Shown here: piece after piece, positions 48,411 to 52,185 of the stretch
Numbering within the stretch: the first letter of the stretch is position 1
Layout: each line of letters starts with the position of its first letter
Assembly (NCBI RefSeq): GCF_001613545.1
Contig: NZ_BDCO01000002.1
Location: 930,001 to 994,000, forward strand
Reading direction: 5' to 3'
DNA: 64,000 bases
Source: Terrimicrobium sacchariphilum
GTDB taxonomy: Bacteria > Verrucomicrobiota > Verrucomicrobiia > Chthoniobacterales > Terrimicrobiaceae
Notes under the pieces: generated by a model
Seen by the model: only the letters and a program-made list of their open reading frames with translations
What the model was told of the DNA's origin: nothing
Databases searched by the model: none
Translations under genes and position numbers: made by a program

Positions 48411-48616
48411 ATTCTTAGGGGATGGCGAGCTTATGCTCGTGTCCATAAGCAAGTGTCGGATTTTTCGATGAGATAGGGCGGGTTCCTCTCTCCTGATGTT
48501 CCGGCGAGCGCATTTGGGCAGCATTGCGTTGGGCGGTGGGGTTACGATTTCTAACGAAATGGTTGAGTGGCAGGTTCGGGTTTTCTAGAATTCGGGGGGA
48601 AAGCTTGGATTTGCGT

Positions 48617-49045
48617 ATGCGCTTTTTTATTTTCGTTGCGGTGGCGGTTTCCCTCTTGGTCCCAAATGTCCGAGCCGGAAACGCATCAAAAAACAACTCC
48701 GGGTGGAAAAGCGGAGCGGTATCCGGGGATGGAGCGTGGTCATGGGTGCTGGAGGTGCCGCAGACGACTTTGGATTCCGCTCCCAGATGGAAACCCGCAG
48801 ATGGCAAGTGTCCCCTTTCCCCGGAGGCAGCCTACAAGAAAGCCGTCGCGGCCTTTCAAAAGCTGGACCTGGGCGCGGCCACTTTCCTGAGACTGACACT
48901 GCGCGTCGATACCCAAGGGCCTTTTGATATTCCGGTCTACGAAATCACCTTTCAGTCCTCGAAGGGCTGCCATGTCGACTTCCTCATTTTCCTCGACGGT
49001 TCCGTAGTGTCCCCAAAGTTCGAGAAACGACCTGATCTCCTTTGA
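48617..49045 (+). CDS. Small secreted protein of unknown function
   Basis: 142 aa from ATG 48617. Signal peptide MRFFIFVAVAVSLLVPNVRA. The mature chain has a helix (PEAAYKKAVAAFQKLDLG), then strands (TFLRLTLRVDTQGPFDIPVY, VDFLIFLDGSVVSP). Function unknown. Overlapping longer frames start earlier but lack a better start. Confidence 0.65.
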   Translation: MRFFIFVAVAVSLLVPNVRAGNASKNNSGWKSGAVSGDGAWSWVLEVPQTTLDSAPRWKPADGKCPLSPEAAYKKAVAAFQKLDLGAATFLRLTLRVDTQGPFDIPVYEITFQSSKGCHVDFLIFLDGSVVSPKFEKRPDLL

Positions 49046-49342
49046 TAAGATACGGAGAAGATTTGGGGCGATGCGCTGGCTCCTTGCGGGCCGGAACTTA
49101 GGACGGCAGGGAAGGCGGAGCCCTGCGGGGTGGGGGCTGCGGTTTTGTTTGGGCTTAATGCTCCTGCCGAGGCTTTGCTAGCATACATCAGAGGAAAGAT
49201 CCGGGTGTTTTCAGCGATCTTCCCTCAGCACGCTCCCCGCCATCATTTTAGCCCCCGCAGCGTCCTCTTGGGTGAGGGAGGCCATTCATTCCGGGTGATT
49301 TCCGGCGCGGAACATGCTACGTACGTGTACGAAACACGACTC

Positions 49343-49963
49343 ATGCGCCGCCGCCTCCTCCTCATTGCCTGCCTCATCGGCCTCCTGAGCGTTTCTGCCG
49401 CCCGGGCCGACATCCTCGTCACCATCGACATCACCAACCCGGCGGCGGTCGTCTTCACCGCCACCAGCGCAGCGCCTCAATCGAGCGGCCCGAATGTCCC
49501 CGGCACCGGCGGGATCGACTTCCTCCATTTCTTCGCCGTCGAGATCAGCGGCTTTGCCTCGGGGCTGGTCTCCCAGTCCACTTTTGCCACCTACCTCGAC
49601 AGCAGCTACCCGTACCAGGACTGGAATACCGACGAATACTCCCGCTCCAATGTGGATCTCCAGTTCTACAGCCAGAAGACCTCCAGCCAGCACTTCAGTA
49701 CCTCCGACCCCGCCTTTGTCGGCACGGGCACGGTGGACTTCTCCGCCTACGCCGCCTATCTCCCCACCGCTGGAGCGACCGGCCAGATCACGGACGGCGC
49801 CTCCGGCAACGCCTCCGGCGACTCGCGGCCGCTCACCGTCCTCGGCTCCTACCAGGTCGTGCCCGAACCCGCGACGTGGGCGCTTCTCGCCCTCGGCCTC
49901 GCCGCTTTGCTGCCCGGCCTGCGCAAGCTCAGGAAGCCGGCGGTCGCCCGGGAGCTCCGCTAG
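49343..49963 (+). CDS. PEP-CTERM secreted protein
   Basis: 206 aa from ATG 49343, with signal peptide MRRRLLLIACLIGLLSVSAA. The mature part is Ser/Thr/Tyr-rich beta sequence (DILVTIDITNPAAVVFTATS, DFLHFFAVEISGFASGLVSQ). The sorting signal is VPEPATWALLALGLAALLPG followed by LRKLRKP. There are no Cys in the mature part and no enzymatic motif. Confidence 0.86.
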   Translation: MRRRLLLIACLIGLLSVSAARADILVTIDITNPAAVVFTATSAAPQSSGPNVPGTGGIDFLHFFAVEISGFASGLVSQSTFATYLDSSYPYQDWNTDEYSRSNVDLQFYSQKTSSQHFSTSDPAFVGTGTVDFSAYAAYLPTAGATGQITDGASGNASGDSRPLTVLGSYQVVPEPATWALLALGLAALLPGLRKLRKPAVARELR

Positions 49964-50021
49964 GAGCGTCCTTCGCAAGAAAAGGTCATGCACGCAGACT
50001 CCTGCCTGCCCGGTCGAGACT

Positions 50022-50273
50022 ATGGCGGGTAGCATTTATTTGTGCGTAGTCGGTGTCTTTGTTCTCGGCCTCGGCTTCCGGGAGCTGTGGATCAACTTCG
50101 CCCTCTTCACCCAGGGGGTGAGAGTGATGGGGACGATCATCTGGTTTGAGACCGCCCCGACGAGACGGCGGCTCTATTGCCCGATTATTGAATACACGGA
50201 CGCAAGCGGCGGGAGGAGGACCTTGCTGGGGAGAGCGAGGAGCGAAAAGGATGAGACGCTGGTAGTGTCCTAA
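50022..50273 (+). CDS. Truncated DUF3592-like membrane protein
   Basis: 83 aa. One N-terminal membrane helix (SIYLCVVGVFVLGLGFRELW) is followed by RVMGTIIWFETAPTRRRLYC, PIIEYTDASGGRRTLLG, the conserved start of DUF3592 proteins. Family members are usually 120-180 aa with a second helix; this one ends early at a stop just before the tRNA terminator. It is therefore probably truncated by rearrangement near the tRNA gene. Confidence 0.6.
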   Translation: MAGSIYLCVVGVFVLGLGFRELWINFALFTQGVRVMGTIIWFETAPTRRRLYCPIIEYTDASGGRRTLLGRARSEKDETLVVS

Positions 50274-50293
50274 TTTGAATCCATAAATAAAAT

Positions 50294-50321
50294 GCCCTAT
50301 GGGGAGCGATTCCCATAGGGC
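50294..50321 (-). terminator. Strong terminator of the class II tRNA gene
   Basis: On the minus strand a perfect 10-bp stem (GCCCTATGGG and CCCATAGGGC, loop of 8) is followed by ATTTTATTTATGG. It lies 2 bp beyond the tRNA 3' end, so the tRNA gene is likely transcribed as a single-gene unit. Confidence 0.8.
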
Positions 50322-50322
50322 G

Positions 50323-50411
50323 AGAAAAGGATGGGATTCGAACCCACGGCAGCATTTTCATACTGCATCCGATTATCAATCGGACCCCTTAAACCGCTCG
50401 GGCACCTTTCT
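50323..50411 (-). tRNA. Class II (serine-like) tRNA with GAU in the anticodon position
   Basis: 89 nt without encoded CCA. The D arm reads CCCGAGCGGTTTAAGGGG. The anticodon arm TCCGA / TTGATAA / TCGGA places GAU at 34-36. A long variable arm has a 6-bp stem (GCAGTA TGAAAA TGCTGC), and the T arm is GTGGG TTCGAAT CCCAT. The acceptor AGAAAGG pairs imperfectly with CCTTTTC (an A-C plus a G-U, or one bulged U). The long arm and D-loop are serine/leucine-like, whereas GAU would read isoleucine codons. A TATAAT directly abuts the 5' end, too close to serve as its -10. Confidence 0.75.
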
Positions 50412-50661
50412 ATTATAGAGTCTACCACGAACGACATTGCTCGCAAGCGAGATTTCGCCGCAATCGCCGCATCAACCGCAGTTGATGGAGAATCAACCGG
50501 CAGGATCTGCAAGACGCACGTTGCCTTGAATTTACCTCGATCCTAAAAACCCCACGCGTAACACTTCTTTGTGATGGGGGTCAGGCGTCATAAATCAAAA
50601 AGCTGCTGAGCGCCCCGGGGTGGTTTTTGCCGGACTGCCGCTTTCCGGCGGAGACCTGTGG
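50412..50661. other. Intergenic region upstream of the tRNA
   Basis: About 250 bp between the 5' end of the tRNA gene and the DUF2254 gene. It contains short frames such as VDAAIAAKSRLRAMSF read across the tRNA, which I take as non-coding. No promoter with both boxes at suitable spacing is visible. Confidence 0.4.
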
Positions 50662-51984
50662 CTAGGCGGCGTAGAGGCGGCAGACGCTGTCGCGATGGGT
50701 CTGCATGTCGGCGGCGTCTCCGGCATTGGGCGAGCGGGCCATGGCGTCCTCAAAGATCGCCTCGGCATGGCGCAGGAGCGTCTGGCGGTCCTCCGGTCGC
50801 GTCACGCGCGGGGCGATCTCGCCGATCACCTGGAGCATGGCGATGGCCACGGCGGGGTTGGAGGCTCCGTATTGACGGATACCATTGAGCGCCGCATCGG
50901 CCAGACCCTGAAAGGAGGAGACCTTGGCGATCACGCGCACGACGCCCTTTTCATCGGCGCGGTGGGGCGCTGGCATTTCACGCTGCGCGGCAAAGCCCAG
51001 CGCGTCGCCGAGCCAGTGGACGCAGGAGATGGCGGTGAACGGGTCGTTGATGCCGGGGGAAAGGGCGCGAAGAGCGATCTCCACGAGCTGGTTGATGCAG
51101 TACTCGGCATCCTGGCGGGGCGTGCGGGATGAGGCGATGAGATGCGCGTCGACGACGGTGGCCTGCGCCTCGTCGTCCACCCTCTGCGGCGGCCAGACCT
51201 CCGCGAGCCGCGCGCCCTCGGGTACAAAGTCTCCCGGCCGCCGCAGCAGATGCACGACCAGCGCCTTTTCCGAGGCAAAGGCGAGCAGGGTATCGCCCTC
51301 GATGGCCTGGATGTACCCGCCCCGGGGCGCGAGGACGGGGGTTCTTTCCTCCGGCTCCGCCTTCCCCGCTTCCCTGGCGGCGGGGGCGCTTTTCGACTCG
51401 CCGATTTGCTCGGGAAACAGCGAGTGCAGCGATTCCCTGAGCTCGGCGGCGACATTGGCCACCAGGGTCTCCGCTCCGATCGACCGGGCGATATGGTGGA
51501 TGTACAGGATCAACATCGCGAGGCTCGCCGTCGTGAGCGCGATCGCCACCGTGACCGAGAGGTAGGGGACAAAGGGCGCCTGCTCGGCCACGCTCTTCAC
51601 CTCGCGCAGGACCAGCAGGCAATACAGGTAGGTGGCGACAAAGGTGCCCATGACCACCTGGTTGATGGAATCGCGGAGAAAATTGCGCAAAAGCCTCGGG
51701 CCGAATTGCGACGAGGCCAGCGTGAGCGCCACGATCGTGATCGAGAAGACCACGCCGGCCACCGTGATCATGGAGCTCGCGATGGTGGAGAGGATGCTCC
51801 TCGCACCGTCCGGGCCGCCCGCCCAGAGCCACCCGATCTCCCGCGCTCCAGTGAGCCCGAGCCGGGCATCGACCTTGAGCGCGCCGATCGACAGGGCGAC
51901 CGCGCCGACACTCATCAGGGTGGGAACGAACCAGTAGCTCGCCCGCAGGGCATCCCAAATGCTGATCAGTCGCGATTTCATCAT
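50662..51984 (-). CDS. DUF2254 membrane protein
   Basis: About 440 aa from ATG 51984. Four N-terminal membrane helices are visible: SYWFVPTLMSVGAVALSIGA, TIASSMITVAGVVFSITIVA, INQVVMGTFVATYLYCLLVL and LSVTVAIALTTASLAMLILY. The first three carry the DUF2254 hallmark with LASSQFGPRLLRNFLRD between. A soluble C-terminal half (PRGGYIQAIEGDTLLAFASE, ALSPGINDPFTAISCVHWLG) is also typical. Family function is unknown. Confidence 0.87.
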   Translation of the reverse strand: MMKSRLISIWDALRASYWFVPTLMSVGAVALSIGALKVDARLGLTGAREIGWLWAGGPDGARSILSTIASSMITVAGVVFSITIVALTLASSQFGPRLLRNFLRDSINQVVMGTFVATYLYCLLVLREVKSVAEQAPFVPYLSVTVAIALTTASLAMLILYIHHIARSIGAETLVANVAAELRESLHSLFPEQIGESKSAPAAREAGKAEPEERTPVLAPRGGYIQAIEGDTLLAFASEKALVVHLLRRPGDFVPEGARLAEVWPPQRVDDEAQATVVDAHLIASSRTPRQDAEYCINQLVEIALRALSPGINDPFTAISCVHWLGDALGFAAQREMPAPHRADEKGVVRVIAKVSSFQGLADAALNGIRQYGASNPAVAIAMLQVIGEIAPRVTRPEDRQTLLRHAEAIFEDAMARSPNAGDAADMQTHRDSVCRLYAA

Positions 51985-52185
51985 CAGAGAATCGCATCCT
52001 CCGCCGCCCACGGTCGCCCGTGAGATTGATGGGAGACGAGGCTGCACCTCAGCACTAGCGGGTCTCCGGCCAGCCCAAAGCGGTCAAGTCATCTGTGCAA
52101 GAACATGCTCACTGACCCGCAGACATGGAAATTAGAGGTGTGACCCCATGCGCTCCCATCCGTAGCGTCTTTCCGAGTGTGGTCC

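Follow-up and report, generated by a model that had tools for sequence, protein, structure and literature searches.

A class II tRNA-like RNA with an isoleucine GAU anticodon in Terrimicrobium sacchariphilum and its sporadic look-alikes in bacteria and phages

Bacterial allo-tRNAs combine a Ser-type class II body and a long variable arm with anticodons that are mostly not those of serine, and UAU (Ile) is described among the frequent anticodons of their 8/4 forms (PMC7609411). The nematode nev-tRNA-Ile(UAU) and nev-tRNA-Gly(CCC) similarly join a V-arm to an Ile or Gly anticodon and are reported to be misacylated with leucine in vitro (PMC4300185). tRNAOther of Bacillus cereus, reported from Bacilli, is a tRNA-shaped RNA with a Trp anticodon, which lies beside a genomic island, is contained within longer transcripts and is thought to have a non-translational role (PMC3399842). 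Phages carry tRNAs that have been linked to anticodon-loop attack and are proposed to counter tRNA-targeting defences as working, cleavage-resistant molecules (PMC10264068). For ordinary bacterial tRNA-Ser, the elements listed are G73, C72, G2-C71, R4-Y69, C11-G24, a large variable region and G30-C40 (PMC9976931).

Here we describe a tRNA-like gene of Terrimicrobium sacchariphilum, located in a stretch of 64,000 nucleotides (hereafter the window), together with look-alikes from other bacteria and phages, collectively termed GAU RNAs. They resemble canonical bacterial tRNA-Ser in the D arm, C11-G24, the variable-arm geometry and the T arm, but have a GAU anticodon and largely miss G1-C72, G2-C71 and G73; in addition, the window RNA has no encoded CCA. 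An allo-tRNA identity was considered for the window RNA and ruled out, given arms of 7/5 in register as opposed to the 8/4 or 9/3 described for that group (PMC7609411). The look-alikes also differ from allo-tRNAs by their 7/5 arms and lost acceptor-end Ser elements, whereas their restriction to GAU is a product of the search design. Unlike the eukaryotic nev-tRNAs, the GAU RNAs are bacterial and Ser-like, with an irregular acceptor tip; unlike tRNAOther, the window gene is stand-alone by its signals and has look-alikes in several phyla; and unlike the defence-countering phage tRNAs, these RNAs present a tRNA-Ile loop on an irregular acceptor end. Among the matches listed, no description of bacterial 7/5 class II GAU tRNAs was found in the open-licence literature.

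The window gene and its setting

ARAGORN called a tRNA-Ile(gat) at 50322-50412 on the minus strand, the sole tRNA call in the window, and Rfam RF00005 matched 50323-50411 with 47.8 bits (E 4e-7, gathering cut-off 29 bits) and GAU inside the anticodon loop, although this is the lowest score among the 47 Rfam tRNA matches of the host genome. The gene (50323..50411, minus strand) specifies a class II tRNA-like RNA of 89 nt with U73 and without an encoded CCA. Its single-strand fold has a z of -2.93, with equal or better stability in 1 of 200 shuffles. The following features were located in and around it:

50405..50411, minus strand: acceptor 5' strand, AGAAAGG
50375..50377, minus strand: anticodon GAU, in the 7-nt loop UUGAUAA (ARAGORN, Rfam)
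50349..50366, minus strand: variable arm, 7-bp stem GCAGTAT/ATGCTGC with one U.G pair and a GAAA loop (fold and sequence)
50324..50330, minus strand: acceptor 3' strand, CCUUUUC; A1.C72 unpaired in register, re-paired with C66 bulged
50419..50446, minus strand: promoter-like site TTGCGA-16-TAGACT, with TG before the second hexamer, ending 7 nt before nucleotide 1
50440..50451, minus strand: inverted repeat CTCGCTTGCGAG, overlapping the -35 hexamer (by eye)
50294..50321, minus strand: intrinsic-terminator-like hairpin of 10 bp, beginning at the second base after U73 and followed by ATTTTATTTA
50662..52047, minus strand: upstream neighbour, a DUF2254 membrane protein (Pfam PF10011, 430 bits)
49942..50570: segment holding the tRNA-like gene, with no counterpart beside the orthologous genes of a same-genus genome (G002)

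The initial annotation had recognized a gene-like class II tRNA with a Ser-type body, GAU at tRNA positions 34-36 in a seven-base loop and a terminator immediately downstream, and had suggested a covariance-model check. The ARAGORN call, the Rfam score above its cut-off, the fold and the hairpin all agree with this description. No Ser anticodon (NGA or GCU) is present according to ARAGORN and Rfam, and shifting the loop by one base to UGA leaves no anticodon stem (by hand). Two details changed: the variable-arm stem, given as 6 bp, has 7, and the acceptor CCTTTTC/AGAAAGG, given as imperfect, is so in the normal register (A1.C72 unpaired, G2.U71, U at position 73) but forms 7 pairs, including one G.U, in the alternative found with RNAfold and a slip test, which bulges C66 (a 1-nt slip).

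Thus, from the tRNA-Ser repertoire the window RNA has the long variable arm and C11-G24, whereas the acceptor set G1-C72, G2-C71 and G73 is replaced by A1.C72, G2.U71 and U73. On the tRNA-Ile side, the loop UUGAUAA contains GAU with A37 and A38, while U73 stands in place of A73, the Ile discriminator, and a 7-bp variable stem in place of the short class I variable loop.

The promoter-like site scores better than shuffled sequence (p = 0.006, one test, uncorrected) and lies under the threshold of a generic promoter scan, which reported no site at the gene. Its start-site score of 9 is not equalled by any of 46 ordinary host tRNA genes, the best of which reaches 7.

The 4.75-Mb host genome (3 contigs) has a class I tRNA-Ile(GAU), beside tRNA-Ala(UGC), serine tRNAs with UGA, GCU, GGA and CGA anticodons, and five leucine tRNAs (ARAGORN). 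Since the canonical Ile(GAU) and Ser tRNAs are all there, the window RNA is an extra copy, apparently unneeded for decoding. Several other host tRNAs also have no encoded CCA.

Close relatives do not appear to share the gene. Two same-genus genomes (94 and 96% complete) gave no match to it, by DNA or by GAU pattern. A DNA search of relatives gave matches in 5 of 57 other genomes, all of them short and limited to the T arm and acceptor. When the D loop was relaxed, the GAU class II pattern occurred, besides the host genome itself, in 1 of 212 other genomes of the order (L220) and 1 of 386 of the phylum (L221), two overlapping sets, and neither hit is an ARAGORN tRNA. Searched by blastn with its flanks against phages and plasmids, the window tRNA had no match.

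PEP-CTERM proteins are encoded near the gene, a feature that in our view points to a Verrucomicrobiota-like host. G002 has orthologues of these and of DUF2254, apparently in a different order by our reading: across window positions 48550-52023, DUF2254, the gene at 48.5 kb and the PEP-CTERM gene seem to have changed order, one breakpoint lying close to the tRNA-like gene. Separately, an 18-nt stretch at the tRNA 3' end (50319-50336) recurs as an imperfect direct repeat (83%) at 50239-50256, 80 nt away, and is possibly an old attachment site, or chance.

Look-alike RNAs in genomes and viral contigs

Genome and viral contigs were scanned with a pattern requiring a Ser-type D loop, YTGATAA and GGTTC, with the acceptor unconstrained. 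The genome contigs yielded 8 loci, six of which ARAGORN calls tRNA-Ile(gat): Campylobacteraceae (L056), Bacteroidetes (L057), Schwartzia (L058), Paludibacteraceae (L059), Cohnella (L060) and Rhizobium (L061). The other two were a degenerate locus from Akkermansiaceae (L054), left out of the alignment, and a chance match (L055), which was dropped. Three loci came from the viral contigs (L062, L063 and L064), L062 having the same sequence as L060. From a looser viral scan, the 80 of 99 stretches that were listed comprised 78 new ones, and two were ARAGORN tRNAs (L163 and L167); these are phage tRNA-Ile(GAU) whose variable arm is class II-like but short, with a perfect acceptor and A73, and they were left out of the alignment. 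Within families, the pattern recovered one further tRNA (L227) among the 188 other genomes of the Schwartzia family (189 in all), none in 393 others for Rhizobium, and 4 in 393 others for Cohnella, none of them an ARAGORN tRNA. Class II RNAs with GAU are therefore sporadic in unrelated bacteria of several phyla, and also occur on phage and prophage contigs. One additional phage sequence (L234:9116-9199) is tRNA-like with an ATATGGT/ACCATAT acceptor, but has an unclear anticodon arm and no ARAGORN call.

In L063, leader, tRNA and terminator make up a cassette of about 165 bp. It is found in 11 of 5,426 E. coli genomes, with 95.7% identity over 163 bp, where RefSeq annotates it as tRNA-Ile, and the L063 and E. 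coli cassettes sit in different flanks. At three of the 11 E. coli loci that were inspected, we read the gene as antisense to early genes of lambdoid prophages. In strain ES8, parts of both flanks (query bases to about 190 and beyond about 927) surround other content, so this prophage spot is variable and moron-like. A 113-aa protein with what we read as a signal-peptide-like start (WP_039022277.1, L216:8532-8873) is encoded beside the cassette in all three inspected loci; it is unrelated to the 564-aa prophage protein next to L063 (L063:501-2195), for which no convincing Pfam, PHROG or PADLOC match was obtained and in which, by our reading, an EVKG stretch might be a nuclease motif.

Elsewhere, the L060 contig is classed as viral in IMG/VR (as L062), and L061 lies near what we read as a ParA-like gene. 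L056 is flanked on one side by a tyrosine integrase and on the other by an ATPase related to the NsnB and AriA models; these three, followed by an unknown 370-aa protein, stand in a row (L056:510-4953) that is a possible defence island. A mobile origin is not general, because the neighbours of the window gene, L057 and L058 look chromosomal. Among the selected neighbours tested there was no common protein partner, and none of the loci was linked to a tRNase. tRNA-dependent lysogeny, as described in PMC10865867, was considered and no such link was seen.

Upstream signals vary as well. L058, L060 and L227 have promoter-like sites placed similarly to that of the window gene and stronger, while 7 of 11 upstream regions have no start-site promoter at p < 0.05 (L056, L057, L059, L061, L063, L064 and the E. 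coli copy); a site upstream of L059 is a candidate Bacteroidota-type promoter. The L063 leader carries CTTGCTTGCAAG, which was compared by eye with the inverted repeat of the window gene; with two cases only, both repeats are possibly due to chance. Pairing between the leader and the 3' end of L063 was also considered and dropped, as the E. coli copies do not preserve it (by eye).

Acceptor ends, covariation and common origin

In an alignment of 11 rows, of which L063 and E. coli are near-duplicates, the 24 cloverleaf pairs are paired at 92.4%, with 61 both-side changes compared with 16.2 in shuffles. The arms thus covary, and the irregularity is concentrated at the acceptor tip: 2:71 is unpaired in 9 of the 11 members and 1:72 in 5, while pairs 3-7 are mostly kept. 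The Ser elements divide in the same manner. G1-C72 is found in no member, G2-C71 in one, G73 in two and the C72 base in three, whereas C11-G24 and the long variable arm are kept in all 11, and, as read off the alignment, R4-Y69 in 9 and G30-C40 in 8.

The changes at the tip are recurrent. Six members (L056, L058, L061, L063, L227 and the E. coli copy) have G.A at 2:71 and G.U at 1:72; U70-A71-U72 together with G.A at 2:71 recurs in the first five of these, and L060 has G.A at both positions. Base 73 is U in seven aligned rows, plus L058, where it falls outside the slice; those with U include L058, L060, L061, L063, L227 and the E. coli copy, and L056 has A. The acceptors of L057, L059, L064 and the window RNA are irregular in other ways, and L064, the only one of 12 rows compared to encode CCA, has G73. 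In relation to the set with an open acceptor tip, defined by GAU on a Ser-type body, an unpaired 1:72 or 2:71 and the absence of G2-C71, the window RNA has A1.C72 in register, yet a 7-pair slip is available and the UAUU end is absent.

We compared these acceptors with those of 34 distinct phage class II non-GAU ARAGORN tRNAs (Asn, Lys, Thr, Met and Gly), taken from 58 stretches that included L062-L064. When a slip of 1 nt was allowed, a break at 1:72 or 2:71 was found in 7 of 10 GAU RNAs and in none of the 34 controls (Fisher p = 3e-6), a comparison that was chosen after the GAU set had been seen and to which host differences could contribute, because the controls all come from phage contigs. 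Adding L163 and L167 gives 7 of 12 (Fisher p = 1.5e-5). The window RNA, L057 and L064 count as unbroken in this test; without slips, all 10 GAU RNAs are broken and so are 5 of the 34 controls, rows that are apparently misanchored by one base. Of the 4 loci obtained in viral scans for class II RNAs of any anticodon that end in UAUU or UAAU, two (L062 and L063, both GAU) are ARAGORN tRNAs. More broadly, IMG/VR contains many phage class II tRNAs (L068-L119) with Asn GUU, Lys UUU or CUU and Thr UGU anticodons and intact acceptors, and 20 of the 34 distinct phage class II odd-anticodon tRNAs encode CCA.

The window RNA and the other GAU RNAs are likely members of a single family. Whole-length identity seemed to unite the set, a result that was set aside as arising partly from the shared loop and the missing CCA. 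Restricted to the body, thus omitting acceptor, loop, most of the variable arm and CCA, identity differs only slightly: 0.756 among GAU RNAs, 0.752 among tRNA-Ser and 0.732 between the two, with 12 host class II tRNAs in the comparison, drawn from hosts other than the Cohnella, Paludibacteraceae and Bacteroidetes genomes. As the body identity of the GAU RNAs is close to that of tRNA-Ser, spread and convergence are both compatible with it. The window tRNA alone, searched against phages with E up to 1, matched 28 records, mostly annotated tRNA-Ser, and the five BLAST neighbours inspected (L228-L232) are tRNA-Ser.

Possible functions

Our best explanation, held tentatively and with somewhat less than even confidence, is that the window gene encodes a self-contained mimic of tRNA-Ile(GAU) outside ordinary translation, most likely a decoy for factors acting on tRNA-Ile. 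Transcription from the promoter-like site would start at the first tRNA base or close to it, and would end at the gene's own terminator. The tRNA-Ser-like body would bear the tRNA-Ile(GAU) anticodon loop, SerRS would charge the acceptor end poorly, and the anticodon arm would be shown to a tRNase toxin, an anticodon nuclease or another tRNA-binding factor. We propose that such a decoy causes no misreading because it is uncharged. An RNA that joins a Ser body to an Ile loop would, if charged, insert serine at the wrong codons, and the altered part of the molecule is the acceptor end, one of the regions that SerRS reads; an altered acceptor on a kept tRNA shape thus fits a molecule kept out of translation. 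tRNA-Ile is a known tRNase target, being cleaved by a CDI toxin (PMC9424206).

Expression and a decoy role of the window RNA are proposed as parts of this reading, and poor charging is something we infer, because E. coli SerRS is described as reading tertiary structure more than bases (PMC9976931); in yeast, the role of 2:71 is reported to be smaller than those of 1:72 and 3:70 (PMC6827378). Several observations also run counter to a mimic. The window acceptor pairs by a slip, keeps C72 and is without UAUU, and C11-G24, R4-Y69 and G30-C40 are mostly kept; moreover, L064 has CCA and G73, the stems of L163 and L167 are intact, and 7 of 11 members have no start-site promoter. For the scattered, often mobile-borne genes as a group, we consider it rather unlikely that they are uncharged tRNA sponges of prophages and islands, with an acceptor selected against charging, that protect their carrier by drawing off factors attacking or binding tRNA-Ile.

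Decay is a serious rival for the window RNA taken alone. Extended to the whole set, the idea that these RNAs, the window RNA included, are decaying tRNA-Ser copies with a mutated GAU anticodon, their similarities reflecting chance or ascertainment, appears to us improbable while retaining real weight. It would account for their sporadic occurrence, single among relatives, for a body identity that does not unite them, for the imperfect acceptor of the window RNA and for the degenerate L054. Against it, the damage lies at the acceptor tip while other helices covary, five members share G.A at 2:71 together with U70-A71-U72, promoter-like and terminator signals flank the window gene, and the E. 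coli and L063 cassettes remain 95.7% identical in different flanks.

Somewhat less probable still, though with decay one of the two main rivals, is a damped mistranslator, charged with serine at a low level and placing some serine at Ile codons, in which the irregular acceptor keeps the effect below a toxic level. Serine identity is described as residing mainly in the variable arm and not in the anticodon (PMC9976931), which fits the retention of the long arm and C11-G24 in all 11 members, and a yeast tRNA-Ser with a Pro anticodon was reported to be lethal unless damped by second-site changes (PMC6827378). On the other side, most of the damping changes in the yeast study either affected single-stranded regions (12 of 22) or created a G:U pair (6 of 22) (PMC6827378); most members have lost G73 and G2-C71, and CCA is encoded in L064 only, though its absence is shared by several host tRNAs. 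The suggestion of the initial annotation that the window RNA could be serylated and place serine at isoleucine codons consequently finds little support, G73 and G2-C71 being missing from it and from most look-alikes.

There is only a slim chance that these RNAs act as regulators built on a tRNA-like fold, the kind of non-translational role proposed for the pseudo-tRNA tRNAOther (PMC3399842), since tRNAOther lies inside larger transcripts whereas the window gene has a promoter-like signal at its start and a terminator signal at its end. The least probable reading, a translating long-arm tRNA-Ile charged by IleRS through its GAU loop, can point to G34, A35, U36, A37 and A38, to the longer-armed phage L163 and L167 with intact acceptors and A73, and to the strength of discriminator and anticodon as Ile determinants (PMC9976931), but is very unlikely for a window RNA with U73 and an imperfect acceptor in a genome that already has tRNA-Ile(GAU); constancy of the loop is no evidence for it, because the loop belonged to the search pattern.

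Because ARAGORN and, in E. coli, RefSeq both label these RNAs tRNA-Ile, they go unnoticed in lists of ordinary tRNA genes. Charged RNAs of this kind would amount to natural elements of mistranslation. Uncharged mimics, the preferred reading, would mean that prophages carry RNA decoys or regulators built from tRNA, and the GAU RNAs would then provide a direct test of tRNA function outside translation and of the arms race over tRNA cleavage.
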